A stretch of DNA of 17,496 nucleotides from Thermoanaerobaculia bacterium. GTDB taxonomy: Bacteria; Acidobacteriota; Thermoanaerobaculia; Multivoradales; JAHEKO01. Where the stretch lies: contig JARFQS010000068.1 of the NCBI GenBank assembly GCA_029287645.1, positions 1 through 17,496 of the forward strand, in the 5' to 3' direction. Positions within the stretch are counted from its first letter, which is position 1. The number at the start of each line of letters is the position of its first letter. Made by a program: the position numbers and the translations under genes. Below, piece by piece: positions 603 to 17,496 of this stretch. Under the pieces are notes generated by a model, which saw only the letters and a list, made by a program, of their open reading frames with translations, was not told where the DNA came from and ran no database searches.

Positions 603-663
603 CGTGGGGCCCCCAGGGGGCTATCCTCCCTTCCGCTGCAAGAACCCCCTGGAGGTCCCCACG
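603..663. repeat. Long imperfect hairpin
   Basis: CGTGGGG (603-609) pairs with CCCCACG (657-663), and CCAGGGGG (613-620) pairs with CCCCCTGG (645-652). An internal loop (CCC / AGGT) separates the two helices and a 24-nt apical loop closes the structure. Two more pairs (600-601 with 665-666) can form beyond an A-C mismatch. This gives 15 strong base pairs, far more than expected by chance. No T-run follows on either strand, so it is not a classical intrinsic terminator. Confidence 0.7.
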
Positions 664-779
664 CCGAACCCTTGGAACCGCTCTAGGTCCCCTGCTGAGC
701 TGTTACCCCTAAGCCCATACGCCCCTATTGCCTTCACCGGCGGTAGAGGTTCGTTCGGGCGGCCCAACCTTGATGTCGA

Positions 780-798
780 GGAGGGGCTTGACCCCTCC
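780..798. repeat. Perfect 7-bp hairpin
   Basis: GGAGGGG (780-786) and CCCCTCC (792-798) form a perfect stem around a 5-nt loop (CTTGA). It lies in tandem with the next hairpin, 3 nt away. No adjacent T-tract on either strand; a possible strong but non-canonical terminator for the convergent genes. Confidence 0.6.
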
Positions 799-801
799 CA
801 T

Positions 802-822
802 GGGAGCCCGCAAGGGGCTCCC
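802..822. repeat. Perfect 8-bp hairpin
   Basis: GGGAGCCC (802-809) pairs with GGGCTCCC (815-822) around the loop GCAAG. Together with the 780-798 hairpin it forms a double stem-loop about 60 bp beyond the stop codon of the minus-strand kinase gene. A role in stopping transcription or protecting the mRNA 3' end is an inference. Confidence 0.6.
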
Positions 823-836
823 TCAGATTGCCGACG

Positions 837-864
837 CCGTCCCCCCGGCGAACCACCCGGACGG
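837..864. repeat. 6-bp inverted repeat next to the kinase stop codon
   Basis: CCGTCC (837-842) and GGACGG (859-864) flank a 16-nt C-rich loop, 18 bp beyond the stop codon of the minus-strand kinase gene. It is weaker than the other hairpins in this gap and could be chance in such C/G-rich sequence. Confidence 0.4.
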
Positions 865-882
865 ACCTCCACCCGAAGAGGG

Positions 883-3026: not shown

Positions 3027-3034
3027 CGTGGATC

Positions 3035-3064
3035 ATTCTGACCGATGGTGGAAGCTGCCGCCAA
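3035..3064 (-). promoter_or_regulatory. Possible sigma70-type promoter for the phosphodiesterase-kinase pair
   Basis: On the minus strand TTGGCG (3059-3064) and CAGAAT (3035-3040) are separated by 18 bp, each matching the consensus at four of six positions. Transcription would begin within a few bases of the GTG at 3026, giving an essentially leaderless message. Prediction by eye only. Confidence 0.35.
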
Positions 3065-3083
3065 TCCTCGGGAGAGCTGGCAG

Positions 3084-3089
3084 TAGAAT
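3084..3089 (+). promoter_or_regulatory. Possible -10 box immediately upstream of the P1 peptidase
   Basis: TAGAAT (five of six consensus bases) ends 7 bp before the ATG at 3097, so transcription would start at or next to the start codon. No convincing -35 element was seen 16-18 bp upstream. A leaderless transcript is the simplest reading. Confidence 0.35.
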
Positions 3090-3096
3090 TCTCCTC

Positions 3097-4113: not shown

Positions 4114-4130
4114 TACGAACTGAGCAACTG

Positions 4131-4847
4131 TCAGTCCTCCTGGGGTGTTGAATTCGGCTCCGCCGGCTCCATGACCAGAGAAAACCGGAACGGAAAGCGC
4201 TTTCGGAGATCGGTGGTCTCCACTTCGTCAGCCATCTCCCGAACATCTTCCAAATGCCAGGCTTGATCGGCCGAGAGCCAGCCGTCGTGAAGAGCCACCC
4301 ATCCCGCTCCGAGCAGAGGCAGAAGGATGCGGGCCATCAGGCGCGCCGCCCCGGACTGGCGCAAGTCGACCACTAGCGCTGCCCTTCGGCACACCCGACG
4401 CATTTCGCTGAGGATCTTCCTGTTCTCGGGACCGTCGAAGTGGTGAAAGAAGAGGTTGGATAAGGACCAGTCGAAAGCCCCGCTACGGAACGGTAGATGC
4501 TCGGCGTCGGCGACAACTCGAAGCTGCCGGTGACCGCGTCGGCGACCGATCACCAAGTGACAGAGCTTGAAGTCGAGGCCGACAGCTCGCAACTCGATGC
4601 CGCGCTTGCGACTATCCCTGACCAAGACACTCGACACCTGACCGGATCCGGTGCCGATGTCGAGTAGCGTCTGAAATCGGTCCCCGGTGGTCTGGCGCCC
4701 CTGCAGTACCCGACGAGCCGCCTCCAAGCCTAGCGTCCATAGGTTGATTCTCTCGAGGTCGGCCAGCGCACGGTCGGTTGTATCCAGGCCCAGTTGGACA
4801 GAGTCCATGAGCTCGGGAGCGCGTACTCGAGGCTTGCCGTCGTTCAT
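4131..4847 (-). CDS. Class I SAM-dependent methyltransferase
   Basis: Product of 238 residues with a Rossmann methyltransferase core. The SAM-binding motif I is LLDIGTGSG (61-69), followed by an acidic residue at the end of strand 2 (Asp92 in GLDF), the adenine-contact motif ADAEHLPF (113-120) and strand 4 DWSLSNLFFHHF (126-137). The N-terminal helix with DRALADLERINLW (25-37) resembles methyltransferases often found beside type III polyketide synthase or isoprenoid genes, which methylate small lipophilic molecules. No such neighbours are present here, so the substrate is unknown. The start ATG has no Shine-Dalgarno sequence. It is divergent from the diguanylate cyclase gene (80 bp apart) and convergent with the peptidase gene. 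Confidence 0.85.
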   Translation of the reverse strand: MNDGKPRVRAPELMDSVQLGLDTTDRALADLERINLWTLGLEAARRVLQGRQTTGDRFQTLLDIGTGSGQVSSVLVRDSRKRGIELRAVGLDFKLCHLVIGRRRGHRQLRVVADAEHLPFRSGAFDWSLSNLFFHHFDGPENRKILSEMRRVCRRAALVVDLRQSGAARLMARILLPLLGAGWVALHDGWLSADQAWHLEDVREMADEVETTDLRKRFPFRFSLVMEPAEPNSTPQED

Positions 4848-4882
4848 GCGGAGTTCGAGGATACCGATTGTGCCAGATCGAA

Positions 4883-4911
4883 TTGAGCTCTCAGGGCTGA
4901 AAGCATACGAT
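4883..4911 (+). promoter_or_regulatory. Sigma70-like promoter of the diguanylate cyclase gene
   Basis: TTGAGC (4883-4888) and TACGAT (4906-4911) lie 17 bp apart, each with four of six consensus bases. The predicted transcription start is near 4918, about 10 nt before the ATG at 4928, so the leader would be too short for a normal ribosome binding site, and none is seen. Confidence 0.45.
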
Positions 4912-4927
4912 CGGTCCGACTGGGATC

Positions 4928-6640
4928 ATGAAAGAGCCTACCCCTCGCGTCGAGCTTCTCCGTGGTGTCGTGCCAGCGGCGGTCGCCCTGATTCTGTTGC
5001 TGGTTGCGCCCCTGTGGGAAAGATGGCTACCAGCCACCGAGCCCACGGCGCGATGGCCCTACCTGATTCTGTGTCTGGTGGCTGTAGCAGCCGGACTGCA
5101 CGGATCGAGGGAGCGGTGGACTCTCAATCTGGCCACGGTCACTCTACCCGCGACGATCGCCTTCTTCGGTAGCGCGATGGCCGCCTGGATGGTCTTGTCG
5201 GTCTACGCGGCGAGGGAGTTCCTTCTTCGGCTGCTGCCCTCGAAGCCGGCTCGTCCCGCCGAGTCGCGTCCGGTCCTGGATCTGCTGCCGGGCGGGGCCT
5301 ACCTCGTTCTGGCGACCCTGGCGGCCGGATGGACCTGGCAAGGTGGCGGTGCCAACGCGAGCCTCGGTTGGCAGCTGGCATCGATCGCCACCTATCTTGT
5401 CGTGCTGTCGGGCCTTCACCTGCTGGATCTGCAGAGGGCCGGGCGGCTGAAGGATCTGAGCTGGCGAGAAGCGAGCGGATCGCTCGGAATCGATCTGGTC
5501 GGCTGGCTGGTGGGCCTGGCTTTCGTTCCCATGGTGATGGGTCTGAACTGGGCTGTCGCTCTCGTGCCACTCGTTGCGCTCGGCCTGCTGGCTGCAGACA
5601 CGGCGAGGAATCTCCACCTGCGCCGCCGGGCCGTCGATCAGGTCTCGGAGCTGTGGGAGGTGACACGCGCCGGGCACCGGATCATCTTCCGCAGCCCTGA
5701 TCTGGCCGGCATGGTGGGCCAGGTTCTGGAGGAATGCCGCAACATGATCCCCTTCTCCTGGTTCCAGTTCGAGCTGCTGAAGGGCGACGGCGGACCCAGG
5801 AGCTGGTTCGCGGGCCCAGATGGGCGGATCGAGGAAGGGGTCCCCGAGCCGGCCGACAGCCCACCCGCGCTGCCCGGTATCCATCGAAGGTCGTCGTGGA
5901 AGGTTCTCGGCCGCGAGCTGAAGGGCGATGGTGAGGCCATCGCCCGGGTTCGTTTCTGGTGTGATCCGCGACGCTTGGAGCCCACCTCGGTCGAGCTGTT
6001 GGACTCTCTGCTGCCTCAGGTGGCCTCCTCGGTGCATCGCGCGCTGCTGGATCGGCGCGCCAAGCACGACCCATTGACCGGACTGGCCGACCGGGGCGTC
6101 CTGGAAAAGCACCTCGAATCGGTCTTCTCGGCGATCCGCGACGAGGGTGGCTCGATGGCGGTCATCATGTGTGATCTCGACCGCTTCAAGAAGGTCAACG
6201 ACACCTACGGCCACGACGTGGGTGACCGGGCACTGCTCAGGATTGCGGAAGTCCTGGAGAAGCACCGGCGCGAGACCGATATCTGCTGTCGGTACGGAGG
6301 CGAGGAGTTCGCAGTGGTGCTGGATCAGACGAACGGAGAAACGGCACAGAGGGTGGCCGAGCGACTTCGTCTAGAAGTGCAGCGTACGGTCTTCACAGCC
6401 AAGGACGAGCGGGTCTATCTACGCCTCAGCGCGGGCGTCGCGGCCTATCCGGAGCTCTTCGTGAAGGACGGCAAGGAGCTGTTGGTGCTGGCCGACGAGG
6501 CCCTCCGGACGGCGAAGAGCCAGGGTCGGAATCGAAGCCTGCTGCATCTCGGCAGGGGTAAGTACCGCAAGTCCGACGGGACGGAGGTGGATGTGGACGA
6601 GCCCCCGCCGAAACCAGAGGCTCCGACCCTCTTCGCTTGA
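4928..6640 (+). CDS. Membrane-bound diguanylate cyclase with active GGEEF domain
   Basis: Product of 570 residues making the second messenger cyclic di-GMP from two GTP. The first about 225 residues hold seven or so hydrophobic helices (for example 12-30, 44-58, 70-95, 120-138, 147-166, 186-204, 207-223), forming a sensor region I cannot match to a named MASE domain. Residues about 240-372 form a GAF-like segment (MIPFSWFQFELLKG; LLPQVASSVHRALLD). The GGDEF domain follows: HDPLTGLADR (380-389), metal site CDLDRFKKVNDTYGHDVGD (415-433), active-site GGEEF (457-461) and an allosteric inhibitory site RETD (448-451) exactly five residues before it. Catalysis and product feedback inhibition are therefore both expected. 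No EAL or HD-GYP domain. Its stop lies 13 bp from the stop of the convergent trkH. Confidence 0.93.
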   Translation: MKEPTPRVELLRGVVPAAVALILLLVAPLWERWLPATEPTARWPYLILCLVAVAAGLHGSRERWTLNLATVTLPATIAFFGSAMAAWMVLSVYAAREFLLRLLPSKPARPAESRPVLDLLPGGAYLVLATLAAGWTWQGGGANASLGWQLASIATYLVVLSGLHLLDLQRAGRLKDLSWREASGSLGIDLVGWLVGLAFVPMVMGLNWAVALVPLVALGLLAADTARNLHLRRRAVDQVSELWEVTRAGHRIIFRSPDLAGMVGQVLEECRNMIPFSWFQFELLKGDGGPRSWFAGPDGRIEEGVPEPADSPPALPGIHRRSSWKVLGRELKGDGEAIARVRFWCDPRRLEPTSVELLDSLLPQVASSVHRALLDRRAKHDPLTGLADRGVLEKHLESVFSAIRDEGGSMAVIMCDLDRFKKVNDTYGHDVGDRALLRIAEVLEKHRRETDICCRYGGEEFAVVLDQTNGETAQRVAERLRLEVQRTVFTAKDERVYLRLSAGVAAYPELFVKDGKELLVLADEALRTAKSQGRNRSLLHLGRGKYRKSDGTEVDVDEPPPKPEAPTLFA

Positions 6641-6653
6641 GCTCGAATCTTGC

Positions 6654-8102
6654 TCAGGGCCGCCAGAAGGCCCGGCTGAACAGGGCGGCGATCGAGTAGA
6701 TCTCGAGTCTTCCCATCCACATCAGCAGCACCATCAGGGCTTTGTCCCAGCCGCTGAAGAAGGCGAAGTTCTGGGTCGGGCCGACCATCGCCAGACCGGG
6801 CCCGATATTGCCCAGAGTCGCTGCCGAAGCTGTCGCACTGGTGACCAGGTCAGGCCCGGAGATGCTGAGCAGCAGCGTTCCGGCACCCCAGATGCTCAGG
6901 TAGAGAATAAAGAAGCCGGCGACACTTCGAACGACGGCGTCGGGTACCGACTTGCCCCCGACAAAGACCGACATCACCGTGTTGGGGCTGAAGATCAGTC
7001 GAGCCTCACGGAAGGCCGAGCGCAAGCCGATGAGCATGCGCATCACCTTCATCGAGCCGCCCGTCGAGCCAGCACAGCCGCCCACGAACATCAGGCCGAC
7101 GATGAGCATGCGCGAGAGCACGGGCCAGGTGTCGAAGTCGGCGGTTGCGAAGCCCGTGGTGGTAGTGATGGAAACCGTTTGGAAGACAGCGTCGAGCGCC
7201 GCGCGCGGTCCGTTCTCATAGGTGCCCCGGCGCAGCAGATCGAAGGTGACGACAGCGGCCACACCCAACATCACGTTCAGGTAGAGGCGAAACTCCGGAT
7301 CCCGGTAGAGGTTCCAACCGCGGCGCCTCTTGAGGCCGTAGAACAGGGAAAAGTTCGTTCCGGCCAGGACCATGAAGAGGATGATCACGATCTCGACCGC
7401 AGGTGACTGGAACGCGGCGACCGAAGCATTGCGCGGCGAGAACCCTCCGGTGGACATGGTTGAGAACGTGTGGGTCAGGGCGTCATACAGGTTCATGCCG
7501 CAGGCCATCAGAAGGACGGTCTCCGCGGCCGACAGCATCAGGTAGATCTTCCACAAAACCCCCGCGGTGTGGGTGATTCGCGAGCCGAGTGCCTCGGACG
7601 TCGGGCCGGGCACTTCGAGCTTGTAGAGGAAGCGGGCGCCAGGACCCAATTCGGGGAGCAGGGCCACGAAGAGGACGATGATTCCCATGCCGCCCAGCCA
7701 TTGGGTGAAGCTGCGCCAGAATAGGATCCCCAGGGCATGTCCTTCGATCGCCGTCATGACCGAGGCCCCGGTGGTGGTGAACCCGGAAGCCGACTCGAAG
7801 AGCGCGTCCATCGGGTGTGTGAAAGTACCGGCCAGTAGATAGGGAATCGCGCCGAAGAGAGATGCCAGCACCCACCCTCCAACCACCACGAGGATTCCCT
7901 CCCGCCTGTAGCTCTCGCCCTTTTCTCCGCCGATGCCCACCATGATGCCGCCCGCGATGGCGGTGATCAGGCTGGACACCAGGAACGCGATGACCACCTT
8001 CCACTCACCGTAGAAGGCGGAGCAGAGGGCCGGGGCCAGGTTCATGGCCGCCAGCAGCAGGACCAGTCTGCCGAGGAAGCGAAGTGGAACGCGGAAATTC
8101 AC
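6654..8102 (-). CDS. trkH: Trk/Ktr-type potassium uptake protein, membrane subunit TrkH
   Basis: Product of 482 residues, the usual TrkH length, an inner-membrane K+ translocation subunit. All four pore repeats carry their filter sequences: TTTGAS (109-114), STGGFS (217-222), TTTGFA (314-319) and TLGNIGPG (429-436). GGCAGSTGGSMK (341-352) also matches the family, and the C-terminus has the typical MWMGRLEIYS stretch. The start is GTG at 8102, 10 bp after the trkA stop, so it is translated from the trkA transcript. No obvious Shine-Dalgarno sequence precedes it. It needs the TrkA ring, encoded just upstream, for nucleotide-gated opening. Confidence 0.95.
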   Translation of the reverse strand: MNFRVPLRFLGRLVLLLAAMNLAPALCSAFYGEWKVVIAFLVSSLITAIAGGIMVGIGGEKGESYRREGILVVVGGWVLASLFGAIPYLLAGTFTHPMDALFESASGFTTTGASVMTAIEGHALGILFWRSFTQWLGGMGIIVLFVALLPELGPGARFLYKLEVPGPTSEALGSRITHTAGVLWKIYLMLSAAETVLLMACGMNLYDALTHTFSTMSTGGFSPRNASVAAFQSPAVEIVIILFMVLAGTNFSLFYGLKRRRGWNLYRDPEFRLYLNVMLGVAAVVTFDLLRRGTYENGPRAALDAVFQTVSITTTTGFATADFDTWPVLSRMLIVGLMFVGGCAGSTGGSMKVMRMLIGLRSAFREARLIFSPNTVMSVFVGGKSVPDAVVRSVAGFFILYLSIWGAGTLLLSISGPDLVTSATASAATLGNIGPGLAMVGPTQNFAFFSGWDKALMVLLMWMGRLEIYSIAALFSRAFWRP

Positions 8103-8112
8103 CGGAGCAATC

Positions 8113-9471
8113 TCACGACCGTTCGCGGCCCGGGAACAACAGGCGCACGGTGTCCAACTCGGATTCGTGGACGAAGAGGATCACCAGATCCCCGGCCTCG
8201 AGTCGATCGTTGCCGCGCGGTACGAAGACGTCGTCACCCCGCATGACGGCACCCACGATCATGCCGCGCGGCGGGCTCATCTCGGCGAGGGTGACGCCAG
8301 AGGCGGGGCTCGCTTCAGCCAGCTTGCGCTCCAGAACCTGGGCAGCACCCTTGTGCAGGGAGACGATGTTGGCGCTGTATCCACTCTCGATGTACTCCTC
8401 GATTCGCTCCCTGGCCAGCGTCCGAGGACTGAAGACCTCCTGCATCCCGAGTCGTCTCCAAAGTTGCGTCGTCTCCGAGCGGTGCACCATCGCCAGCACC
8501 TGCTCCACACCGAGCTCCTGTGCGAGCAGGCAGGCCATCAGATTGCTCTCGTCGTTGGCGGTGAGGCCGACGAAGCTCTTGGCCAGGCCGATGCGCTCGG
8601 CCTTGAGCAACGCCAGATCCGTGGCGTCGCCGTGGATGATCTCGAACTGGGGAAACTCGGCGGCGAGTCGCTGAGCGACACTCTTCTCGATCTCGATGAT
8701 CTTTACAGGGATTTCCAAGGGTGCGAGCGCCCTTGCAACCGCGCTGCCGGTCTCGCCGCCGCCAGCTATGACGACTTTGCCGACGACCTTGCGATGATTG
8801 CTGACGGTGAGCTCGGCTTGCTCGATGACCTCCGAGGTGCCGAGAATCAGTGCGTCGTCGCCTTCCTGAGCCTGGTCGTTACCGCCGGGAATGATGAGGT
8901 CGTCACCACGATAGAACGCGGCGACCAGAGAGTTTCTGGGGAGCAAGACGTCTCGCAGGGGCTTGTTGACGAGCGGCGAGTCGGCGTCGAGGTGGATCTT
9001 GCGGAGCTGGACCTTGCCGGCCGCCAGATACTCGACCGCCATGGTGGCATGACCGTGAATCTCGTTGAGGACGCGCGTGGTGGTGAGTAGCTGGGTGGAG
9101 AGCAGTAGATCGACGTCGAAGGCCTGCTCCAGGAGCCGACGGTAGGTGATGACTTCCTCGGCCACCGCCACCCGCACAACAGCCCTTTGGGCGCCGAGGT
9201 CCTTGGCGAGATTCGCCGCCGCCAGATTGGCTTCGTCGGACGACGACACCGCCATGAAGAGCTCGCACCCTTCGACCCCGGCGGCTGCGAGAACGGGAGG
9301 GTGAGCCCCGTTTCCGCCGACCACCCGCACATCCAGCTCTTCGTCGATCCGTTCTTGCTTGGCCGGATCAAGCTCGATGACGGTGACATCCTCACCCTGT
9401 TGGGAAAGGGTCTGCGCCAGGTGGTAGCCCACCTCGCCAGCCCCCATGACCACGTAGTGTTTTCGTTGCAT
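8113..9471 (-). CDS. trkA: Trk potassium uptake system regulatory subunit TrkA
   Basis: Product of 452 residues with the full-length two-lobed TrkA plan: RCK_N (1-about 120, dinucleotide motif GAGEVG at 10-15, with Glu33 at the end of strand 2), RCK_C (about 140-220), a second RCK_N (230-about 350, glycine motif AGGGETG at 236-242) and a second RCK_C (about 365-450). It is a soluble protein that docks on TrkH and gates K+ uptake in response to NAD(H) or ATP/ADP. The ATG at 9471 begins the family-typical N-terminus (YVVMGAGEVG) and lacks a Shine-Dalgarno sequence. It leads the trkA-trkH operon; the 210-bp region upstream is shared with a divergent DUF4136 gene. Confidence 0.95.
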   Translation of the reverse strand: MQRKHYVVMGAGEVGYHLAQTLSQQGEDVTVIELDPAKQERIDEELDVRVVGGNGAHPPVLAAAGVEGCELFMAVSSSDEANLAAANLAKDLGAQRAVVRVAVAEEVITYRRLLEQAFDVDLLLSTQLLTTTRVLNEIHGHATMAVEYLAAGKVQLRKIHLDADSPLVNKPLRDVLLPRNSLVAAFYRGDDLIIPGGNDQAQEGDDALILGTSEVIEQAELTVSNHRKVVGKVVIAGGGETGSAVARALAPLEIPVKIIEIEKSVAQRLAAEFPQFEIIHGDATDLALLKAERIGLAKSFVGLTANDESNLMACLLAQELGVEQVLAMVHRSETTQLWRRLGMQEVFSPRTLARERIEEYIESGYSANIVSLHKGAAQVLERKLAEASPASGVTLAEMSPPRGMIVGAVMRGDDVFVPRGNDRLEAGDLVILFVHESELDTVRLLFPGRERS

Positions 9472-9515
9472 GGTTTTCAGTGACTCTGGGATCGCACCAC
9501 CGTCTTGTTAGTGGG

Positions 9516-9521
9516 ATTGTA
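9516..9521 (-). promoter_or_regulatory. Possible -10 box of trkA-trkH
   Basis: On the minus strand this reads TACAAT (five of six consensus bases), inside GGGCTACAATCCC, giving a leader of roughly 40 nt before trkA. No clear -35 was found at 16-18 bp, so an activator or alternative spacing may be involved. The same GCTACAATC string recurs in the promoter of the phosphatase gene (13430-13435). Confidence 0.4.
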
Positions 9522-9589
9522 GCCCGAAACTCCTTCCACAAAGTCAGTTGGGACCCCATGGATCCGGCTCTTTGGGCCGCTGAAGCGGT

Positions 9590-9610
9590 GTCTCGTGGGA
9601 CGTCTCGTGG
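9590..9610 (+). repeat. Direct repeat GTCTCGTGG x2, candidate operator
   Basis: GTCTCGTGG occurs at 9590-9598 and again at 9602-9610, a 12-bp period, slightly more than one helical turn. The second copy covers the -35 region of the promoter proposed for the DUF4136 gene at 9682. Tandem half-sites in this position are typical of response-regulator or activator binding; which protein binds is not known. Confidence 0.4.
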
Positions 9611-9620
9611 CTGGACCTTG

Positions 9621-9629
9621 TGCTAACGT
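9621..9629 (+). promoter_or_regulatory. Extended -10 promoter element for the DUF4136-channel operon
   Basis: TGC followed by TAACGT (9624-9629) forms an extended -10 element. The -35 position (about 9601-9606, CGTCTC) matches poorly and is overlapped by the GTCTCGTGG direct repeat, suggesting activation. The leader to the ATG at 9682 would be about 45 nt. Confidence 0.4.
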
Positions 9630-9681
9630 CTGCCTGCCGAAATCGGGTGCCATCGCCAGAGTTCCGCGAGAGGAGAGAATC

Positions 9682-10218
9682 ATGTCGAGATCCATCGTAT
9701 TCGGTGTCTCACTTTGCCTGATGCTGGCCGCCAACGTGTCTGCGCAGGACGTAGACATTCGTGCCAAGGACGGGGTGAACTTCTCGGGCTTCACGACCTA
9801 TGCATGGGCGCCACATCTCGATGTGGATGGCGACCACCCGGTCGCAGACGGCTCTCCCCTCGATCTGAAGATCAAGAAGGCGGCCGACTCCGAGCTCGAG
9901 CGCAAGGGCTACGAGCGTGTCGAGCGGCAGGAGTCTCCCGACCTGATGATCAACTACGTCGGTTTCGGTACGGACATCACAGACATCGAGGGAATTACCA
10001 AGGAGCTGACGCCCGGAGTCAAGTGGATTGGCGACCCGCAGGCGCACTCGATGCGCTCCTATCGTGAGGGCACTCTGGTGTTCGAGGTCGTGGATACGGC
10101 CACCGAGGAGATGGTGTGGAGCGGCTGGGTGACCGAGTTGGCGCGCACCTTCGAGAAGCTCAGGGCCAAGGCCGAGAAGGCCACGCGCAAGGTCTTCACA
10201 CACTTTCCTCAGAAGTGA
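9682..10218 (+). CDS. Secreted DUF4136-family protein
   Basis: Product of 178 residues from the ATG behind a strong ribosome binding site (GAGGAGAG, 9669-9676). Residues 1-21 are a signal peptide with predicted cut after NVSA; there is no lipobox cysteine, unlike many DUF4136 members, so it is probably soluble in the periplasm. The mature protein shows the family pattern: an N-terminal VNFSGFTTYAWAP block, a helix with SELERKGYERV, then DLMINYVGFG, a strand pair TLVFEVVDTATEEMVWSGWVTE and a final helix ending in VFTHFP. The function of DUF4136 is not known. It is 6 bp upstream of the potassium-channel gene and co-transcribed with it. A second DUF4136 gene lies just beyond the channel on the other strand. 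Confidence 0.85.
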   Translation: MSRSIVFGVSLCLMLAANVSAQDVDIRAKDGVNFSGFTTYAWAPHLDVDGDHPVADGSPLDLKIKKAADSELERKGYERVERQESPDLMINYVGFGTDITDIEGITKELTPGVKWIGDPQAHSMRSYREGTLVFEVVDTATEEMVWSGWVTELARTFEKLRAKAEKATRKVFTHFPQK

Positions 10219-10224
10219 GGCTCG

Positions 10225-10962
10225 ATGGGCCAGAAGATCGAGATGCTGGGCGATCGTGTCTGGCACAGATACTCGCGGGAGAACCTCAACGTCTCCCTCC
10301 TCGTATCCCTGGTCGTCCTGTTCTTGCTCTACCCGGTGATGGTGGAGCTCGGGCTTGTCAGGTTCTACAGGTGGGTGTTCATTTTCGAATTGATTCTGGC
10401 GTCTTTCGCCATGGCGTCAACCTGGGCGCACCGGAACCTGGCAGTGGCTCTGGGGGCGCCGGCGATCCTGTTCCAGATGGTGGCTTACTCGCTACCCTCT
10501 CGACTGAGTTTGGGTATGGCGGCGCTAGCGACTCTGGTCTTCTTGGTCTATGTGATCATCGTGGTCTATCGATTGCTCCTCGCACCTGGCGTCGTGACGG
10601 GTGACAAGCTGGCCGCAGCAGTCAATGTCTACCTTCTTCTGGGCTTGGCGTGGGCCATCGCCTATGGGGTGATCGCGACGCTCGACTACGGGGCCTTCAC
10701 GACCTCGACCATCAAATTCGAGACGCTCGAAGAGTATGTCGAGCTCGGGGCCGAGTTCGTCTTCATCTACTTCAGCTTCGTGACGATCACGACGCTCGGC
10801 TATGGCGACGTGCTGCCGGTGACACCCATCGCGCAAACCGCGGCTTGGACGGAAGCCGTCGTGGGTCAGCTCTTCGTGGCGGTGACGATCGCTCGTCTGG
10901 TGGGGTTGCTGGGCAGGCGGGATGTGATGGGGTCCCGAAAACACCAGGACGACCGTGACTAA
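10225..10962 (+). CDS. Potassium-channel protein with TTLGYGD selectivity filter
   Basis: Product of 245 residues, an inner-membrane ion channel subunit that probably forms a tetramer. The C-terminal half is a two-helix pore module: helix 131-151, pore helix and filter TITTLGYGD (187-195), then helix 204-228. Four further hydrophobic helices precede it (about 23-43, 48-66, 72-88, 95-118). They lack the regularly spaced arginines of a voltage sensor, and there is no RCK or cyclic-nucleotide domain after the pore, so gating is not evident. The start ATG is 6 bp after the DUF4136 stop, with TGAGG overlapping that stop as ribosome binding site. Its TAA shares bases with the TAG of the convergent second DUF4136 gene. 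Assignment as a K+ channel is firm; direction and trigger of flow are not known. Confidence 0.88.
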   Translation: MGQKIEMLGDRVWHRYSRENLNVSLLVSLVVLFLLYPVMVELGLVRFYRWVFIFELILASFAMASTWAHRNLAVALGAPAILFQMVAYSLPSRLSLGMAALATLVFLVYVIIVVYRLLLAPGVVTGDKLAAAVNVYLLLGLAWAIAYGVIATLDYGAFTTSTIKFETLEEYVELGAEFVFIYFSFVTITTLGYGDVLPVTPIAQTAAWTEAVVGQLFVAVTIARLVGLLGRRDVMGSRKHQDDRD

Positions 10963-11483
10963 TTGGAATCGGGAGGAAAGCTCTCGAACATCTTCGTGAC
11001 AGCCTTGTCGATCTGCTTCTGAGCGGTTTTCGGGTTTTCGCTCAGAGTTCTGGTGGCTGTGCCGCGCCAGATGTTCAAACGGCTGTTCCCGTCATCCATG
11101 TCCACGACCAGGGTGCCGACCTCGATCTCGCGGAGGGAATCCCCGGAGACCCCTCCAGGCTCGGAGTCTTCAGGCCAGCGTTGCTGCACACCGAGGATGT
11201 CCACGTCTTCTCGCAGCTCGCTGGCTCGCCGAGCGTGGGTCGACACCAGCAGGTCGGCATCGGAATCGACCCGGGTGAGACCTTTGGCCAGTAGCTGCTT
11301 CTGGACCGTCTCCCGGATCATCTTCTCGATCGCGGGGTCGGCTGCCGGTGTGCCTTGCTTCCAGGCGAAAGTCTTGAACTGCGTGAAGTCGACGGTCTTG
11401 GCAGCTTGAACCGCCACCGCAGCCTGCACCTGGGCTGCCGACAACATGAGGATCAGTCCGACGAGACACTTGGCGAATTTCAT
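10959..11483 (-). CDS. Second secreted DUF4136-family protein
   Basis: Product of 174 residues. A signal peptide covers residues 1-21 (cut after VQA), with no lipobox. The mature chain repeats the DUF4136 pattern: VDFTQFKTFAWKQG near the N-terminus, helix IRETVQKQLLAKGLTRV, DADLLVSTHA, strand pair GTLVVDMDDGNSRLNIWRGTATRTL and a last helix ending in MFESFPP. It is clearly divergent from the copy at 9682-10218, so not a recent duplication. The ATG lies 1 bp after the stop of the phosphatase gene (TGA-G-ATG), with a GGGGGTGAG ribosome binding site inside the end of that gene, so the two are translated from one message. Its last 4 bp overlap the convergent channel gene. Confidence 0.85.
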   Translation of the reverse strand: MKFAKCLVGLILMLSAAQVQAAVAVQAAKTVDFTQFKTFAWKQGTPAADPAIEKMIRETVQKQLLAKGLTRVDSDADLLVSTHARRASELREDVDILGVQQRWPEDSEPGGVSGDSLREIEVGTLVVDMDDGNSRLNIWRGTATRTLSENPKTAQKQIDKAVTKMFESFPPDSN

Positions 11484-11484
11484 C

Positions 11485-13404
11485 TCACCCCCCCGATTGC
11501 GCTGCTTGGGAATCGCACACTTTGAGGATCCTATCGCGTCGGAACAGCAGCCCGTCGATCTGCTCCGTCGAGAGAAGGTCTCCGACGACTCCCGCGAGTT
11601 GCTGGCGGCTCAGCGAGCTCAGCCCCAATTCGAGATCGGCGTCGAGCGGGCCGCAGGGATCCGGCAGATCCGGACCCGGTTCTGGCGAGGTGGGGAAGGC
11701 CTTGGTGCTGTCCGAAAGGGCGATGCGGCGGTCCTGGGGAAGGAACATCCTGCCGAAGTCCTCGCGGCCCTCGACGGCCAGGAGAGCACTGAAGACTCTC
11801 GCGGTGAACCTCTCCTCGTCCAGGCCCTCCAGAAGATCCAACTGATCGTAGGTCTCGAGGAGGGTCAGATCTACGGCACCCTCCATGAAGATCTGGATCG
11901 CCCCGGGTGTTCCCTCGACGCTTCGCTCGATGGTGACGGGCACCAGGTCGAGGCCCAGCAGTCGGTCGAGGCGGTAGGCGGCTACTTCGTTGCGGTAGGC
12001 GCGGACAGCCACTCCTGCTGGTTGCCCGGGTTCGGGTGATTCCTCGACACCCGAGAAAATGGCGCGCATCTCAGGGCCGTCGCCCTCCAGATCACAGACA
12101 TTGGCTGACCGCAGGCCCTTCTGGATCAGGGTGCAGGAGGTGATCTCGGCTTGCCGCAGGAACTCTTCCAGTTGGGCATCGGTCAGCTGTTCGTCGAACC
12201 GGGACCATCCCTCACCCGCAGGCGGTTCGACGGTCGGTTGAGACAACGAAGCGATCTTCGGGTCGAAGACCTCGAAGTCGTCACCCTCGATCACCAGGGC
12301 CAGCGGCTCGCGACCGTAGGCCATACCTACGTCGGCGCGATAGATCTGACCCTTGAAGCGCGAGGTGATACGACCCGATCCGGTCGGAGTGTGGGCGACT
12401 ACGACGGCGCGCGCGTCCAGCGCTGTCAGGGCTCTGTCGAGGCTGGCTCTTTCGAGTCGCTCATTCTCCAGCGAGTTGCCGCGATACCAGAGCGGCCCGG
12501 TCGGCCTGAAAGCCAGGGACTCGGTCAATCGCAAGAAGCTCCTTGCGGCTTCGACCCTGGTATCGCGACCGCCGTTTTCCACCAGAGCGAGGGCCGCGCG
12601 GTAGGTCTGGGTGAAGTCCGCGGGGCCCGCGGTCTCGCCCTCCAGCTTGTCCATGATGGGGATGAGCTCGAGGATGCTCTCACGAACTTGCCCGTTGATC
12701 GCTTCCAGTCCCAGGCCGGCCACGATGTCGGTCAGTCCTCCGTGGAGAAACACCACGCCGTTGATCTTGATGATGGTGGGATGCCGGAGGATCCAGGAGC
12801 CATACTCGCCCTCCGGTGCGAAGGCCCGAATCCGTGCGAAATAGCCGGGCGGGTAGCGTTGATCGAACGCGGCCTTGACCTTGCCGAGGGGAACGGTGGG
12901 TGACGCCATTCCGCCGCGAAAACGCTGCCAGGCCTTCGACCGGTCCTTCTTGTTCTCTTCAGCCGCGAAAGCCAGGAATCCCTCCTCGGGTACATAGCGC
13001 AGATCGCGGACGAGATTCATCACCTCGTGATTGCCCAGCAGTGCATGTACCTCTCCACCTGCCGATGGGGCCTGCTCTTCCAGTTGTCGAACGAGATCCA
13101 GAACCTCCAGCTCCTGTGGACCGCGATCGATCAGGTCACCGATAAACACGAGGTGGGTCGAGCCGCCGCTCCAGGCCAGCGCTTCATCGACCACACCGGT
13201 GCCCTGCAACAGGGAGATCAGCTTGTCGTAGGAGCCGTGCACGTCGCCAATGGCGACGATCCGGGACACCTCGGCCCATTCATAGGGAGTGGACTCGCTC
13301 ACCGCTGACGAGCCCATCACCAGGGCCAGGAGGCAGCACAGCAGGGAGTGTCGTGCCCAATCGACAGAATTCCGCACCAGAATGCGGTCCCTTGGTAAAC
13401 GCAT
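11485..13404 (-). CDS. Secreted PPP-type phosphatase fused to a C-terminal kinase-like (probable pseudokinase) domain
   Basis: Product of 639 residues. A signal peptide or anchor lies near 19-37. The phosphatase domain (about 46-380) has every PPP metal motif: GDVHG (53-57), GDLIDRG (89-95), GNHE (124-127), FLHGGL (219-224) and AHTPTG (337-342), resembling Shewanella-like protein phosphatases. After a linker, LTDAQLEEFLRQAE (408-420) opens a second domain with RNEVAAYRLDRLLG (471-484) and VPVTIER (488-494), the pattern of HipA/FAM20-like kinases in which an N-lobe helix packs on the hinge. Active relatives, as I remember them, carry a lysine after AxF, an N-x-D-R catalytic loop and a DHS metal motif. 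Here these read AIFS (Ser451), VEGRE (544-548) and SDST (564-567), so catalysis is probably lost. Start: ATG 5 bp after the strong AAGGAG site (13410-13415 on the plus strand), with a good promoter upstream. Phosphatase part firm; kinase-like part moderately sure. Confidence 0.85.
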   Translation of the reverse strand: MRLPRDRILVRNSVDWARHSLLCCLLALVMGSSAVSESTPYEWAEVSRIVAIGDVHGSYDKLISLLQGTGVVDEALAWSGGSTHLVFIGDLIDRGPQELEVLDLVRQLEEQAPSAGGEVHALLGNHEVMNLVRDLRYVPEEGFLAFAAEENKKDRSKAWQRFRGGMASPTVPLGKVKAAFDQRYPPGYFARIRAFAPEGEYGSWILRHPTIIKINGVVFLHGGLTDIVAGLGLEAINGQVRESILELIPIMDKLEGETAGPADFTQTYRAALALVENGGRDTRVEAARSFLRLTESLAFRPTGPLWYRGNSLENERLERASLDRALTALDARAVVVAHTPTGSGRITSRFKGQIYRADVGMAYGREPLALVIEGDDFEVFDPKIASLSQPTVEPPAGEGWSRFDEQLTDAQLEEFLRQAEITSCTLIQKGLRSANVCDLEGDGPEMRAIFSGVEESPEPGQPAGVAVRAYRNEVAAYRLDRLLGLDLVPVTIERSVEGTPGAIQIFMEGAVDLTLLETYDQLDLLEGLDEERFTARVFSALLAVEGREDFGRMFLPQDRRIALSDSTKAFPTSPEPGPDLPDPCGPLDADLELGLSSLSRQQLAGVVGDLLSTEQIDGLLFRRDRILKVCDSQAAQSGG

Positions 13405-13429
13405 GGAGTCTCCTTGGCTCTTGGAGAAG

Positions 13430-13459
13430 ATTGTAGCTACCTGACTCATCCACCGACAA
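13430..13459 (-). promoter_or_regulatory. Sigma70-like promoter of the phosphatase-DUF4136 operon
   Basis: On the minus strand TTGTCG (13454-13459) and TACAAT (13430-13435) are 18 bp apart, with four and five of six consensus bases. The leader of about 20 nt contains the AAGGAG ribosome binding site. This is the best-looking promoter in the window. Confidence 0.5.
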
Positions 13460-13487
13460 ACTCGGAAGACAAGAAGATCGGAGACTC

Positions 13488-13516
13488 TTGGGAGGAGTTC
13501 TGCCGCCATGTAACAT
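13488..13516 (+). promoter_or_regulatory. Sigma70-like promoter of the TonB-like gene
   Basis: TTGGGA (13488-13493) and TAACAT (13511-13516) are 17 bp apart, each four of six consensus bases. Transcription would start at about 13523, which is the upstream GTG itself, so the message would be leaderless from GTG or have a leader of about 15 nt to the ATG at 13538. It is arranged back to back with the phosphatase promoter. Confidence 0.4.
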
Positions 13517-13522
13517 AGCGCC

Positions 13523-14260
13523 GTGAAATCCCGAGTCATGAAGGTGGTGATCCTGGCGGTCCTGCTGTTGGGCCAGGTGGCCAGCCTCTCTGCAGAGCTG
13601 CCCATCGACACCGTCAAGAACGACAAGATCCGCAAGGCCTTGCGCGAGGTTTCTCTGCAGCTGCTGTTCGGTAACCCCGTCATCACGCGCTCCAACGCCC
13701 GCGATATCGCCTGGGGTATCTTCAACCGCGGCCTGAGTCAGGAGCGAGATGCGCTGGGCTACGCTCTGGCCATGCAGGCGGTCGCCGAGGCCAGTCTGAA
13801 CCTCGACCGGGAAGCGCTCTGGCACTGGGACATGGCCCAGATCATGGTGCCGAACCTGCGCGCCGACCTGGTACAGAGGTACAGCGGCCTGGTGGGTATG
13901 TTCGACGCCAGTCCCTTTCGGGACCAGCCTTCTGCCATCGAGCACCTGTCGGCCGAGGGTGAGTGGCTGCCTTCGGAGGGTGGCGTGATTCAACCTGCGC
14001 AAGTCACGACGCGGTCGGACATTCCGTCACCGGGCCGCAGTCGTAACGCACTGGTTGGACAGCGCGTCAAGGTCTCCTATCTGGTCGATACCCAGGGCAG
14101 GACCTATACCCCGGTTGTCGAGGAAGGAAGCGGGAACACGCTCGCTGTCTTTACTGTGCTGGAGTCCATTCTCGTGTGGAATCACGACCCGGCGACCGTG
14201 GACGGTGAGGCGCGATGGTCGCGAACGGGTGGGGCTTTCTCCTTCAAGAAGAACCGATAG
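13523..14260 (+). CDS. Secreted protein with TonB C-terminal-like domain
   Basis: Product of 245 residues from GTG, or 240 from the ATG at 13538; both give a good signal peptide (cut after SLSA, residue 24), and neither has a Shine-Dalgarno sequence. The middle (about 55-125) is helical and may hold TPR-like repeats (ALGYALAMQAVAEASLNLDREALWHW is split by short turns). Residues about 178-245 match the TonB-C pattern: VKVSYLVDTQGRTYTPVV, a helix, then WNHDPATVDGE and a final FSFKKNR strand. TonB-C domains contact outer-membrane receptors, but true TonB proteins have an uncleaved N-terminal anchor and a proline-rich linker, both missing here, so this is more likely a periplasmic protein of unknown role. 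It begins the transcription unit leading into the methyltransferase, gdh and nhaA genes. Confidence 0.75.
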   Translation: MKSRVMKVVILAVLLLGQVASLSAELPIDTVKNDKIRKALREVSLQLLFGNPVITRSNARDIAWGIFNRGLSQERDALGYALAMQAVAEASLNLDREALWHWDMAQIMVPNLRADLVQRYSGLVGMFDASPFRDQPSAIEHLSAEGEWLPSEGGVIQPAQVTTRSDIPSPGRSRNALVGQRVKVSYLVDTQGRTYTPVVEEGSGNTLAVFTVLESILVWNHDPATVDGEARWSRTGGAFSFKKNR

Positions 14261-14272
14261 GAAGGAGGTGGA

Positions 14273-15001
14273 GTGAGTCAGGACTCCATCTACGAAAGGC
14301 AGGGGCTCCATCTTCTGCTTTTCATGATTCTGTTTACGGCTGTCGGCTCGATCAGTGGCACGGAGGGGCTTCTCGTCGGCCAGTGCCAGGGAGTTCCGAC
14401 GGCCTACTGGTTCTGGCTCTCGATCCTGTTTCCGGTTCTCCACCAGGTCTGGGTCTGGATCTGCTGGAGGATGGAGCTTCATCACCGGTGGCTCAGCCGC
14501 AGTCTCGGAGACTGGGGGTTCAAGATCTACGCGATCGGCTTTGCGCTGTTGTCCTTCGCGCGCTTGTACACGCTGACCGCTACCGCCCTCGGAAGTGAGG
14601 GCAGCCTGGCTGTCGATCGGAATCTCCTGCGAGTCCTGGCGATGGTCGTGGCGATTCCGGTCGTCTACACCTTCTATTCGGTGACACGGTACTTCGGGTA
14701 CAAACGCGCCCTGGGGATCGATCACTTCGATCCCGCCTATCGGACCAGGCCCTTCGTACGGAAGGGCATTTTTCGGTGGACGAGAAACGGTATGTACACC
14801 TTCGGCCTGGCCATCGTCTGGTTGCCTGGCTTGCTCTGGGCTTCGACGCCAGCGCTGGTGTCGGCGGCCTTCTCGCACCTCTACATCTGGGTGCATTACC
14901 TCTGCACCGAGCTCCCGGATATGCGCAGGATCTATGGAACCGCCGAAGTCGACGGGGAGACCGAGTGGGCAGCAACAGGCGGAAAAGGAGACGGAACATG
15001 A
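14273..15001 (+). CDS. Integral-membrane methyltransferase of the PEMT/ICMT type
   Basis: Product of 242 residues with about five or six membrane helices (10-28, 43-65, 83-103, 117-140, 173-210). The C-terminal part carries the hallmarks of phospholipid or isoprenylcysteine methyltransferases: WTRNGMYTFG (169-178, in place of the usual RHPxY) and, after the last helices, TELPDMRRIYG (212-222), whose Glu and Tyr-Gly elements help bind SAM in this fold. The substrate could be a phospholipid head group or another membrane-borne molecule. The GTG start follows a near-perfect AAGGAGGT site (14262-14269) only 3-4 bp away. It lies 12 bp behind the TonB-like gene and overlaps the glutamate dehydrogenase start by 4 bp (ATGA), so it is part of an operon with metabolic genes. 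Confidence 0.75.
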   Translation: MSQDSIYERQGLHLLLFMILFTAVGSISGTEGLLVGQCQGVPTAYWFWLSILFPVLHQVWVWICWRMELHHRWLSRSLGDWGFKIYAIGFALLSFARLYTLTATALGSEGSLAVDRNLLRVLAMVVAIPVVYTFYSVTRYFGYKRALGIDHFDPAYRTRPFVRKGIFRWTRNGMYTFGLAIVWLPGLLWASTPALVSAAFSHLYIWVHYLCTELPDMRRIYGTAEVDGETEWAATGGKGDGT

Positions 15002-16416
15002 GCCCAGCCAAAACCTCTACGTTTCTGACCAGCGTCGAGTCGATGCTGAATCGAGCCATAGGCCTGATGGATCTTCCGCCTGGCCTGGGAGAGGTGCTGC
15101 AGAGATGCCGCTCGGTCTATCAGATGCGCTTCCCCGTGAAGATCGCAGGCAAGTGGCAGGTCTTCGAGGGTTGGCGGGCGAATCACAGCGAGCACCTGCT
15201 GCCGACCAAGGGAGGTATCCGCTACGCGCCCGAGGTCGATCAGGAGGAGGTCGAGGCGCTGGCTACCTTGATGACCTTCAAGTGTGCGGTTGTGGACGTC
15301 CCCTTTGGCGGCGCCAAGGGCGGCCTCAAGATCGATCCGCGCAAATACAAACGACATCAAATGGAGCGGATCACCCGGCGATTCGCCCTCGAGCTCGACA
15401 GAAGGGGCTTCATCAGTCCGAGCGAGAATGTGCCGGCTCCCGACATGGGCACAGGCGCTCGGGAGATGGCCTGGATGGCCGACACCTACCGTACGCTGCA
15501 CCCCAACGACATCGATGCCATCGCGTGCATCACGGGCAAGCCGCCACAGATGGGTGGCATTCGTGGCCGGGTCCAGGCTACGGGCCGCGGTGTGCAGTAC
15601 GCGCTTCGCGAGTTCTTCTGCCACCCGGAGGACGTGGAGGCTGCGGGCCTCGAAGGCGGACTGGCGGGCAAGAGAGTCGTGGTCCAGGGCCTGGGCAACG
15701 TGGGGTATCACGCCGGCAAGTTCCTGCAAGAAGAGGATGGCTCCAAGATCGTGGCCATCATCGAGCGAGACGGTGCCCTGCGAAGCTCCGAGGGTCTGCC
15801 GGTCGAAGAGGTCAGGAAGTACATCACCGCCAACGGCGGCGTGAAGGGTTTCCCTGGTGCGGAGTATCTGGAGGACGGCCGAGCGGCCCTCGAGGACGAA
15901 TGCGACATCCTCGTTCCGGCGGCGCTCGAAGGGCAGATCACAGTGGAGAATGCCCCGAAGATCGAAGCGAAGATCATCGCCGAAGCCGCGAATGGGCCCG
16001 TCACGGCCGAAGCCGATGCGATGCTCCTCGAAGCGGGAAAGGTGATCCTCCCCGACATGTATGTGAATGCGGGCGGTGTCACGGTTTCCTACTTCGAGTG
16101 GACCAAGAACCTCGCGCACATGCGGTTCGGCCGCATGGGGCGGCGCCTCATGCAGATGCGGTCCGAGGCGGCTCTGGAGCTCCTCGAAACTGTGCTGAAG
16201 ACGCAGGTTCCTGAAGGCTTCAGCAAGGCGTTCCGTCAGGAAGCGGATGAGCGTAACCTGGTGTTGTCGGGCCTGGAGGACACCATGCGCGAGGCCTACG
16301 GCGGAATTCGCGAGGTCTGGCGCTCGCGCGACGATGTTCCCGACCTCCGCACGGCCGCCTACATCCTGGCCATCGGGAAGGTGGCCCATCACCATCACGA
16401 ATACTCACTGGCGTGA
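14998..16416 (+). CDS. gdhA: Glutamate dehydrogenase, Glu/Leu/Phe/Val dehydrogenase family
   Basis: Product of 472 residues catalysing reversible oxidative deamination of glutamate to 2-oxoglutarate and ammonia. Substrate-site motifs are TKGGIRY (70-76, Lys71), FKCAVVDVPFGGAKGG (94-109, with Lys95 and catalytic Lys107) and PAPDMGTG (146-153, Asp149). GRVQATGRGV (190-199) and the Rossmann motif GLGNVG (231-236) follow, with Glu256 at the end of strand 2 (AIIERDG), favouring NAD over NADP. A related amino acid such as leucine as substrate cannot be excluded, though the Lys71/Lys95 context fits glutamate. The chain is about 50 residues longer than usual hexameric enzymes of about 420, the excess lying near the C-terminal helices (about 375-440). 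Start: ATG after AAAAGGAGA, overlapping the methyltransferase stop (ATGA). nhaA follows after 19 bp. Confidence 0.92.
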   Translation: MSPAKTSTFLTSVESMLNRAIGLMDLPPGLGEVLQRCRSVYQMRFPVKIAGKWQVFEGWRANHSEHLLPTKGGIRYAPEVDQEEVEALATLMTFKCAVVDVPFGGAKGGLKIDPRKYKRHQMERITRRFALELDRRGFISPSENVPAPDMGTGAREMAWMADTYRTLHPNDIDAIACITGKPPQMGGIRGRVQATGRGVQYALREFFCHPEDVEAAGLEGGLAGKRVVVQGLGNVGYHAGKFLQEEDGSKIVAIIERDGALRSSEGLPVEEVRKYITANGGVKGFPGAEYLEDGRAALEDECDILVPAALEGQITVENAPKIEAKIIAEAANGPVTAEADAMLLEAGKVILPDMYVNAGGVTVSYFEWTKNLAHMRFGRMGRRLMQMRSEAALELLETVLKTQVPEGFSKAFRQEADERNLVLSGLEDTMREAYGGIREVWRSRDDVPDLRTAAYILAIGKVAHHHHEYSLA

Positions 16417-16435
16417 TCGAGAAGCAGAGACACTC

Positions 16436-17496
16436 ATGAGCGCTTCTGAACCATCGGCGGGAAAACAGAAACACGGTATCTTCCAGCGTTTTCTGCATTC
16501 GCAGGTGGCAGGCAGCGTGGTGCTGCTCGCCTGCACGATCTTGGCGCTGATCTGGGCCAACTCCCCGGCCGGTGACAGCTATCGGGAGCTGACCCATACC
16601 TATGTCGGCGTCTCCTTCGGTGAGCACAGTTTCAAGTTGTCGCTGCAGCACTGGATCAACGACCTGCTGATGGCGGTCTTCTTCTTCGTGGTCGGCCTCG
16701 AGATCAAGCGGGAGATGGTCTTGGGTGAGCTGTCTTCGTTCAGGAAGGCGATCCTGCCGGTGACGGCAGCGGTTGGCGGCATGGTCGTACCCGCGGCCAT
16801 CTACCTCATGTTCAACATTGGAGGAAAAGGCGGGGCGGGTTGGGGAATTCCGATGGCGACCGACATCGCGTTCGCCCTCGGGATCCTGGCGATCTTCGGC
16901 AAGCGGGTGCCTCTGGGGCTGAAGGTCTTCCTGACGGCCCTCGCCATCGCCGACGACATGGGGGCGGTCCTGGTCATCGCTCTCTTCTACACGGAGCAAG
17001 TCAGTCTGAAGGCCCTGATCGTGGCGGGTGTCTTCCTCCTCCTGCTCCTCGTCGCTTCGAGAGCCAATGTCCGGCGTGTGGGCGTTTGGGCGTTTCTTCT
17101 GATTGGAGTCTGGCTGGCGGTCTTCGCATCGGGTGTCCATGCCACGGTCGCGGGCATCCTGGTGGCCATGGTGGTGCCGGTACGGGCCCGAATGGATCCA
17201 CACAAGTTCGTGGAGACGGTCGAAGCGAATTGGCGGAAGCTTGATATGTCCAAGCTGACCCAGGAGAGCATGGTCTCGAACAACGAGCAGTACGAGGCCC
17301 TGCGGACCATCGATCTCGCAGCCACCGACATGCTGCCGCCAGGGCTGGTCCTCGAGCGTTACCTCCACCTGGGGCAAGCCTTCCTCATCTTGCCGTTGTT
17401 CGCTTTCTTCAATGCGGGAGTCAAGATCGGCGGGGACTACCTGGAGCTCCTGAGCAATCCGATCAGCCTCGGGATCATTCTGGGCCTGTCTCTTAT
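16436..17496 (+). CDS. nhaA: Na+/H+ antiporter NhaA, 3' end outside the window
   Basis: The frame runs from ATG at 16436 to the window edge without a stop (353 complete codons; E. coli NhaA has 388 residues in all). NhaA exchanges two H+ for one Na+ across the inner membrane, keeping Na+ low and pH constant. Diagnostic parts are VVGLEIKREMVLGEL (85-99), ATDIAFALGILAIFGKR (141-157) and LTALAIADDMGAVLV (166-180), with the ion-binding pair Asp173-Asp174 and Asp143 matching E. coli Asp163/164 and Asp133, then LPLFAFFNAGV (319-329). The loop between helices near 249-312 is roughly 45 residues longer than in E. coli and charged, as seen in several NhaA subgroups. It is the last visible gene of the methyltransferase-gdh operon; only a weak ribosome binding site precedes it. 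Confidence 0.95.
   Translation, partial: MSASEPSAGKQKHGIFQRFLHSQVAGSVVLLACTILALIWANSPAGDSYRELTHTYVGVSFGEHSFKLSLQHWINDLLMAVFFFVVGLEIKREMVLGELSSFRKAILPVTAAVGGMVVPAAIYLMFNIGGKGGAGWGIPMATDIAFALGILAIFGKRVPLGLKVFLTALAIADDMGAVLVIALFYTEQVSLKALIVAGVFLLLLLVASRANVRRVGVWAFLLIGVWLAVFASGVHATVAGILVAMVVPVRARMDPHKFVETVEANWRKLDMSKLTQESMVSNNEQYEALRTIDLAATDMLPPGLVLERYLHLGQAFLILPLFAFFNAGVKIGGDYLELLSNPISLGIILGLSL

Follow-up and report, generated by a model that had tools for sequence, protein, structure and literature searches.

A predicted exported PPP phosphatase with a fused FAM20-type pseudokinase domain in a Thermoanaerobaculia bacterium, and its putative place in a translocase-linked kinase family

Why should a phosphatase that probably leaves the cytoplasm carry a second domain that has the look of a kinase and lacks the residues of one? 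The question is raised by a stretch of 17,496 nucleotides from a Thermoanaerobaculia bacterium of the Acidobacteriota (assembly GCA_029287645.1, contig JARFQS010000068.1, positions 1 to 17,496), referred to here as the window, and in particular by its coding sequence at 11485..13404. This gene lies on the minus strand, frame 1 of the plus strand being interrupted by several stops across the same interval, and encodes a protein of 639 residues (P0001) composed of a signal-like N-terminus, a PPP phosphatase and a FAM20-type pseudokinase. A sequence-only reading of the window had proposed such a fusion with a FAM20/HipA-type domain, and this description is borne out by Pfam and predicted fold for the phosphatase, and by fold and profile for the kinase half. 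The same reading saw in the exported chain a self-contained phosphate switch, which is not supported as written, because the kinase half of P0001 should be unable to phosphorylate. The explanation favoured here, which we consider probable although far from assured, is that P0001 is an exported PPP phosphatase whose FAM20-type half has lost catalysis and is retained as a binding or regulatory module, the whole acting as the eraser of a translocase-fed periplasmic system.

The phosphatase domain occupies residues 48–395 (12220..13263; this and all further features of the gene are on the minus strand), with a Pfam Metallophos match of 3.1e-13 over residues 48–162. Residue counts given below refer to 314 full-length homologues out of 321 proteins, and to 118 of 121 proteins of the window type, after length filters and with near-duplicates kept. 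The four metal motifs named by the sequence-only reading are all in place, namely GDVHG at residues 53–57 (13234..13248; Asp54 in 313 and His56 in 309 of the 314), GDLIDRG at 89–95 (13120..13140; Asp90 in 313), GNHE at 124–127 (13024..13035; Asn125 in 313, His126 in all 314) and FLHGGL at 219–224 (12733..12750), whose metal ligand His221 is found in all 314; to these can be added the metal ligand His338 (12391..12393), equally invariant. The PPP family signature, consisting of GDxHG, GDxxDRG, GNH(E/D), HGG and the second metal His, is complete in P0001, and seven PPP residues are conserved in 308 of the 314 homologues. Four fused homologues (P0076, P0090, P0094 and P0105) have Ser in place of His56, a possible degeneration on the phosphatase side. 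Among PDB entries, the cold-active PPP protein-tyrosine phosphatase of Shewanella (1v73, 2z72, 2zbm) is the best match by sequence (2.9e-33) as well as by fold (~1e-20) and the nearest solved relative of this half, whilst the full-length model of P0001 also matches calcineurin and PP5 (~1e-7). The Shewanella chains, of 336–342 residues, are devoid of a kinase-like domain, whereas P0001 has about 240 residues extra. By predicted fold and complete metal site, residues 48–395 are a PPP phosphatase, and, to judge from the sequence, this half should be active and the kinase half inactive.

Export is suggested by a crude hydropathy analysis, in which a signal-peptide-like segment (13300..13404) is hydrophobic from residue 21; the model of P0001 places a helix at residues 11–30 with low confidence. 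By the same crude measure, 294 of the 302 homologues that could be scored have such a hydrophobic N-terminal segment, and no transmembrane-like stretch appears further on. P0001 is probably exported from the cytoplasm.

The kinase-like half spans residues 405–630 (11515..12192). A Pfam scan of P0001 returned no family over the C-terminal half and no kinase family, no kinase was found among the 60 listed of its 86 PDB sequence matches, and the NCBIfam family SCO1664 (TIGR03843) touches residues 416–523 (1.1e-5) with 25 bits, below its cut-off of 172.4. The kinase link of P0001 comes through the profile, the model or the relatives. The predicted fold of the C-terminal half is not of a kind unrelated to kinases: it matches FAM20 and PI4K-II; furthermore, a profile built from the fusion family matches FAM20 sequences. 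Some listed fused relatives carry precomputed Pfam assignments to PF00454 (PI3_PI4_kinase) or PF20613 (HipA_2), one of them, from Lysobacter ruishenii, bears the name phosphatidylinositol 3-/4-kinase, and six fused relatives that were scanned gave PI3_PI4_kinase, HipA_2 or Fam20C matches, all below cut-off. A chance likeness to kinase motifs is ruled out by the fold, the profile and the relatives with intact motifs. Type II PI 4-kinases, HipA/HipT, CtkA and the SCO1664 family are among the nearest known counterparts of this half, HipA and PI4K being cytoplasmic.

What has happened to its active site? The elements RNEVAAYRLDRLLG (residues 471–484), VPVTIER (488–494) and DSTKAF (565–570) are present in P0001 as the sequence-only reading had it, and the positions of the Lys, the catalytic Asp, the Asn and the metal Asp were assigned by alignment to motif-intact relatives. 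The set scored for an active kinase comprises these four and the acidic residue five before the helix Glu. In P0001, the ATP-lysine position is Ser451 (12052..12054; Lys in 120 of 314 homologues), the acidic position Arg468 (12001..12003; across all 314, Arg in 129, Asp in 129, Glu in 22), the catalytic Asp position Gly546 (11767..11769; Asp in 168 of 314) and the metal Asn position Gly551 (11752..11754; Asn in 109 of 314), so that Asp565 (11710..11712), the metal Asp at the DFG-Asp position (Asp in 278 of 314), is alone kept of the set; the helix Glu473 is retained as well. Of the losses announced by the sequence-only reading, Ser451 and Gly546 were correct, the Asn position had been mistaken for the adjacent Arg552, and Arg468 had been overlooked. 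Among 103 motif-intact members, a fraction of 0.99 have Asp at position 468, where P0001 and 110 of 117 members of the kinase-dead clade to which it belongs have Arg. In the profile alignment, Hydra Fam20 has Asp here and FAM20A has Gln. Animal FAM20A, FAM20B and FAM20C are not known to be fused to a phosphatase. The Gln at the position matching 468 is part of why FAM20A is counted as a pseudokinase, as set out in the relevant passages of PMC5865150. Compared with the FAM20 proteins, P0001 is also changed at the Lys, Asp and Asn positions, and whereas FAM20A has FAM20C as its partner, P0001 has no known partner.

The loss is a property of the lineage: 117 of the 118 window-type proteins are without the full Asp/Asn/Asp and a single one keeps it, and a mere shift of the residues is ruled out by the lack of Asn at 551 in all 117 dead-clade rows. 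Sequence and model together support the view that the C-terminal half is kinase-like, of the FAM20/HipA type, and has lost its active site, and P0001 qualifies as a pseudokinase by predicted fold and lineage-fixed residue loss, the domain itself having been kept.

The resemblance goes well beyond chance. At E≤1e-3, P0001 has matches in 1170 of the 7997 database proteins that were scored, and it can be said that the fusion is kept, since 119 of 120 relatives listed cover at least 91% of the query. A tblastn search of genomes matched 555 loci via the phosphatase motifs, and these therefore need not all be fusions; an open reading frame (ORF) of at least 590 residues was present at 77 of the 80 examined. 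Homologue alignment, which the sequence-only reading had proposed as a check, shows that 101 of the 314 full-length fusions keep all four kinase residues, Lys included, and that 106 keep only the last Asp. The word "intact" stands for four residues, Lys among them, in the 314-protein set, the 154-member tree and the 80-locus count, and for three residues (Asp/Asn/Asp) in the class fusions, the 83-locus tree and the comparison of clade residues. On a tree of 154 members drawn from the 314 (less than 70% identical to each other) and built from the phosphatase half alone, intact and lost states require at least 14 changes, six of them forced by well-supported branches. Such counts give no direction by themselves, but, the loop residues being present in stand-alone and animal relatives, loss would be the sensible reading. 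P0001 is also one of a lineage with characteristic cysteines: Cys584 (11653..11655) and Cys630 (11515..11517) occur both in 111, singly in 8 and neither in 195 of the 314, and the pair marks P0001's clade (105 of 118, versus 6 of the remaining 196 proteins). A second covarying pair is Cys424 and Cys437, found together in 44 and singly in 5. These pairs would fit disulfides of an exported protein, that of Cys584 with Cys630 being probable.

Are the dead halves still under selection? In seven dead pairs of relatives (six proteobacterial and one acidobacterial, L010/L011, the latter inside the supported seven-row clade of P0001), the ratio of the proportions of non-synonymous to synonymous differences (pN/pS) was 0.14–0.55 for the kinase half and 0.16–0.45 for the phosphatase half, to be compared with 0.11–0.36 and 0.20–0.44 in six motif-intact pairs. 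A decaying pseudogene half is ruled out by the nearness of the two ratios in the seven pairs. On the sequence evidence, P0001 descends from a family whose other members keep kinase motifs, and the dead halves, as measured in relatives, are under purifying selection.

The genomic surroundings of the relatives suggest what the family may be doing. At 80 fused-relative loci, the commonest nameable neighbour family was the ATP/ADP translocase PF03219 (2.2e-9, over cut-off), lying within 6 kb at 14 of 22 motif-intact versus 7 of 54 lost loci (proximity was scored at 76 of the 80). In these 21 cases the distance is at most 100 bp in 16 and the translocase is on the opposite strand in 13, and the recurring adjacency is seen in loci named Acidobacteria as well as in proteobacterial ones. 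The proteobacterial full-motif fusions L057, L086, L044, L081, L045 and L031, Lysobacter and Kangiella included (L057 is from Lysobacter daejeonensis, L044 from Kangiella spongicola), have an opposite-strand translocase no more than 25 bases off or overlapping. Translocase-linked full-motif members from Proteobacteria (e.g. L045, L057, L044) have Lys at 451. Within 147 genomes of the source's class, a FAM20-type kinase match was found in 41 and a translocase in 54, the two coinciding in 40 of the 41 kinase genomes versus 14 of 106 others (Fisher p 7e-23, without correction for phylogeny). In 27 of these 40 genomes the translocase has a kinase or phosphatase match within 5 kb. Counted by pairs of match rows, the two share a strand in 25 of 26 cases for kinases and in 26 of 26 for phosphatases, phosphatase counts from the A1 match table being lower bounds. 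The class sample holds 30 fused genes in 22 genomes, 14 of them translocase-linked; all 13 that could be scored (one is cut by a contig end) keep Asp468 together with Asp/Asn/Asp, which is kept by 4 of 16 unlinked fusions, three of these four lying at or near contig ends.

In the source genome itself (3.1 Mb in 638 contigs, 70% complete), a translocase on contig C341 (TLC 2.2e-13, over cut-off; HEAT_2 1.1e-29) lies directly upstream of two FAM20-type kinases on one strand (L087 1–2577, L003 653–1843), the second truncated by the contig end. Stand-alone FAM20-type kinases with hydrophobic N-terminal segments are encoded on C140, C341 (start uncertain) and C535, the last being over the Pfam PI3_PI4_kinase cut-off (1.7e-7). 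The second TLC match of the genome, on C388, is over cut-off, with MFS_1 scoring higher. In 16 wider neighbourhoods, where genes were called by a simple ORF rule that missed some known genes, a gene of ~150 codons sits within the translocase/PPP-kinase group in eight (L218, L220, L222, L225, L227, L228, L230, L231), and the one scanned has a cyclic nucleotide (cNMP)-binding domain (6.8e-13); all four long transporters scanned from these neighbourhoods combine PF03219, over cut-off, with HEAT repeats. The same architecture of TLC plus HEAT with a cNMP-binding gene is described for the NTT-HEAT translocases in the parts of PMC5381601 that deal with them, where such proteins are recorded in free-living bacteria with no function given. 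The words "kinase" and "periplasm" are absent from its main text, whereas here the transporters lie beside FAM20-type kinases. The proteobacterial neighbours differ from NTT-HEAT proteins in being shorter TLC proteins of ~440–565 residues.

How could these parts work together? The phosphatase of P0001 would strip phosphate, in the periplasm, from substrates that FAM20-type kinases in its own cell have phosphorylated. The dead domain may dock such a substrate, may dock the kinase in the way FAM20A does with FAM20C, or may gate the phosphatase. ATP would be supplied by the NTT (TLC) ATP/ADP translocase encoded beside such kinases in the source and related genomes. For the family as a whole, the most economical model is one in which the translocase feeds ATP to exported writer-eraser fusions and to stand-alone writers, and dead erasers like P0001 would have arisen from this family repeatedly; in this model, we infer activity, substrate, export, ATP delivery and the direction of transport. 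By sequence and models, the molecular core is two folds, a complete PPP site and a kinase site from which Lys, Asp at 468 and at 546, and Asn have gone. The broadest version, in which free-living Acidobacteriota and Proteobacteria phosphorylate outside the cytoplasm, translocases delivering periplasmic ATP to FAM20-type kinases and dead fusions serving as pseudokinase-guided erasers, is held tentatively, at somewhat less than an even chance, and is rated down because 8 of 13 translocase-linked fusions are without ATP lysine and helix Glu.

Several observations weigh against this account. On one tree of 83 loci, which omits near-duplicates, short fragments and loci with less than 2 kb of flank and no translocase, the raw table gives 27 intact loci with a translocase and 7 without, and 7 lost loci with and 42 without; the link (27/34 versus 7/49) is clustered by lineage, which may be what lies behind it, and the phylogeny-controlled test of intact kinase against translocase was not significant, with three pairs on supported branches (six when paired by translocase). 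Seven lost-kinase fusions, moreover, also adjoin a translocase. None of the 13 translocase-linked class fusions has Lys at position 451, five having Arg there and eight His, and all eight with His451 (L182, L184, L185, L187–L191) carry Gln or Asn at the helix Glu473, a correlated change for which none of the explanations offered accounts; Arg is found at 451 in 15 of 17 stand-alone rows as well. Given that 451 is never Lys and that eight also lack the helix Glu, the kinase activity of these class fusions is putative. The P0001 gene has no adjacent translocase, nor is there one on its 17.5-kb contig, and the substrate might be a glycan or a lipid. Finally, selection acts somewhat less tightly on the kinase half than on the phosphatase half in four of seven dead pairs, and the kinase half is the less constrained one in one of six intact pairs, so that constraint on the dead halves is somewhat relaxed but real, and the single acidobacterial dead pair has the highest ratios (0.55 versus 0.45). 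As a separate observation, the dead fusions L038, L078, L027, L080 and L084 are still near a translocase and are possibly recent losses.

Among the other explanations, the one that survives best, although it is improbable, is that P0001 is a plain periplasmic phosphatase of broad range used for nutritional phosphate scavenging, its kinase-like half being an appendage for folding or stability. The solved Shewanella relative does without that half, the Cys584/Cys630 pair resembles a stabilising disulfide typical of the clade, and PPP phosphatases with no fused kinase are also found beside the translocase; nevertheless, the near-universal query coverage among listed relatives, the constraint on the dead half in the seven pairs and the coincidence of kinase and translocase in the class, which points to signalling or modification, all speak against it. 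Slightly less probable still is that the degenerate domain is an enzyme of another chemistry on the kinase fold, which would make use of residues conserved in the domain, Asp512 and Asp565 among them. AMPylation has been reported for bacterial pseudokinases, and bacterial pseudokinase polyglutamylation offers a further precedent (by a reference title in PMC7948968). Asp512 (11869..11871), invariant in the dead clade and found in 0.04 of motif-intact members, is near-invariant along with Arg468, Glu455, Pro556 and Cys630, none of which occurs in more than 5% of motif-intact members, and Asp565 is retained; against this, the Lys451 and Asp546 positions hold many different residues across the clade, as expected of relaxed chemistry, no further catalytic motif could be made out, and Asp512, placed after the strand that follows the VPVT segment, may be structural. 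That the C-terminal half remains a working kinase through some unorthodox mechanism, making P0001 a bifunctional kinase-phosphatase, is very improbable given the four lost positions and the dead-clade lack of Asn551, even though Asp565 and Glu473 remain, about a third of fused relatives (101 of 314) have the four motif residues and even translocase-linked class fusions lack Lys451.

If the broadest version, with its translocase-fed phosphorylation outside the cytoplasm, is true, it would assign a role to the translocases that free-living bacteria possess. The animal secretory-pathway kinases would then have a counterpart in bacteria, which would be a little-known route to phosphorylation beyond the cytoplasm. 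The periplasm is commonly regarded as devoid of ATP. The recurring group of translocase, FAM20-type kinase and PPP phosphatase genes would offer a testable answer as to the translocase's role, and a kinase half that decays repeatedly while the phosphatase metal site is kept would be a natural series for how pseudokinases arise. Among the open-licence papers listed in literature searches, titles and abstract openings had nothing on a phosphatase-kinase fusion or a translocase-FAM20 kinase link, and the string "bacteri" occurs nowhere in PMC5865150 and once, in the reference list, in PMC7948968.

Around the gene, a DUF4136 protein (10959..11483, minus strand; Pfam 3.8e-29) has its ATG one nucleotide past the stop of the phosphatase-pseudokinase gene, and co-transcription of the two is possible. 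A conserved DUF4136 partner is ruled out: the ORFs of 80 other neighbourhood loci gave no match at E≤1e-3, and the domain is present at the window only. This protein and a second of its kind (9595–10218, plus strand) lie either side of an ion-channel gene. An anti-phage system was likewise rejected, P0001 having no PADLOC match at E≤1e-3; one stand-alone kinase has a weak match (2.6e-5). Near kinase-dead fusions of Proteobacteria, a conserved protein of ~360 residues without a Pfam match recurs (L029, 7969–9048, minus strand, and 20 other loci; 20 lost, one unscored), and Pfam and NCBIfam scans of this cluster and of a DUF4956-protein cluster, also near proteobacterial lost-kinase fusions, led nowhere. 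Finally, a stand-alone kinase paralogue (L002, 1459–2292, minus strand) keeps the Lys and the catalytic Asp with an altered loop (LDYSDLRNLV, SSMAFD), and is a candidate degenerate member.
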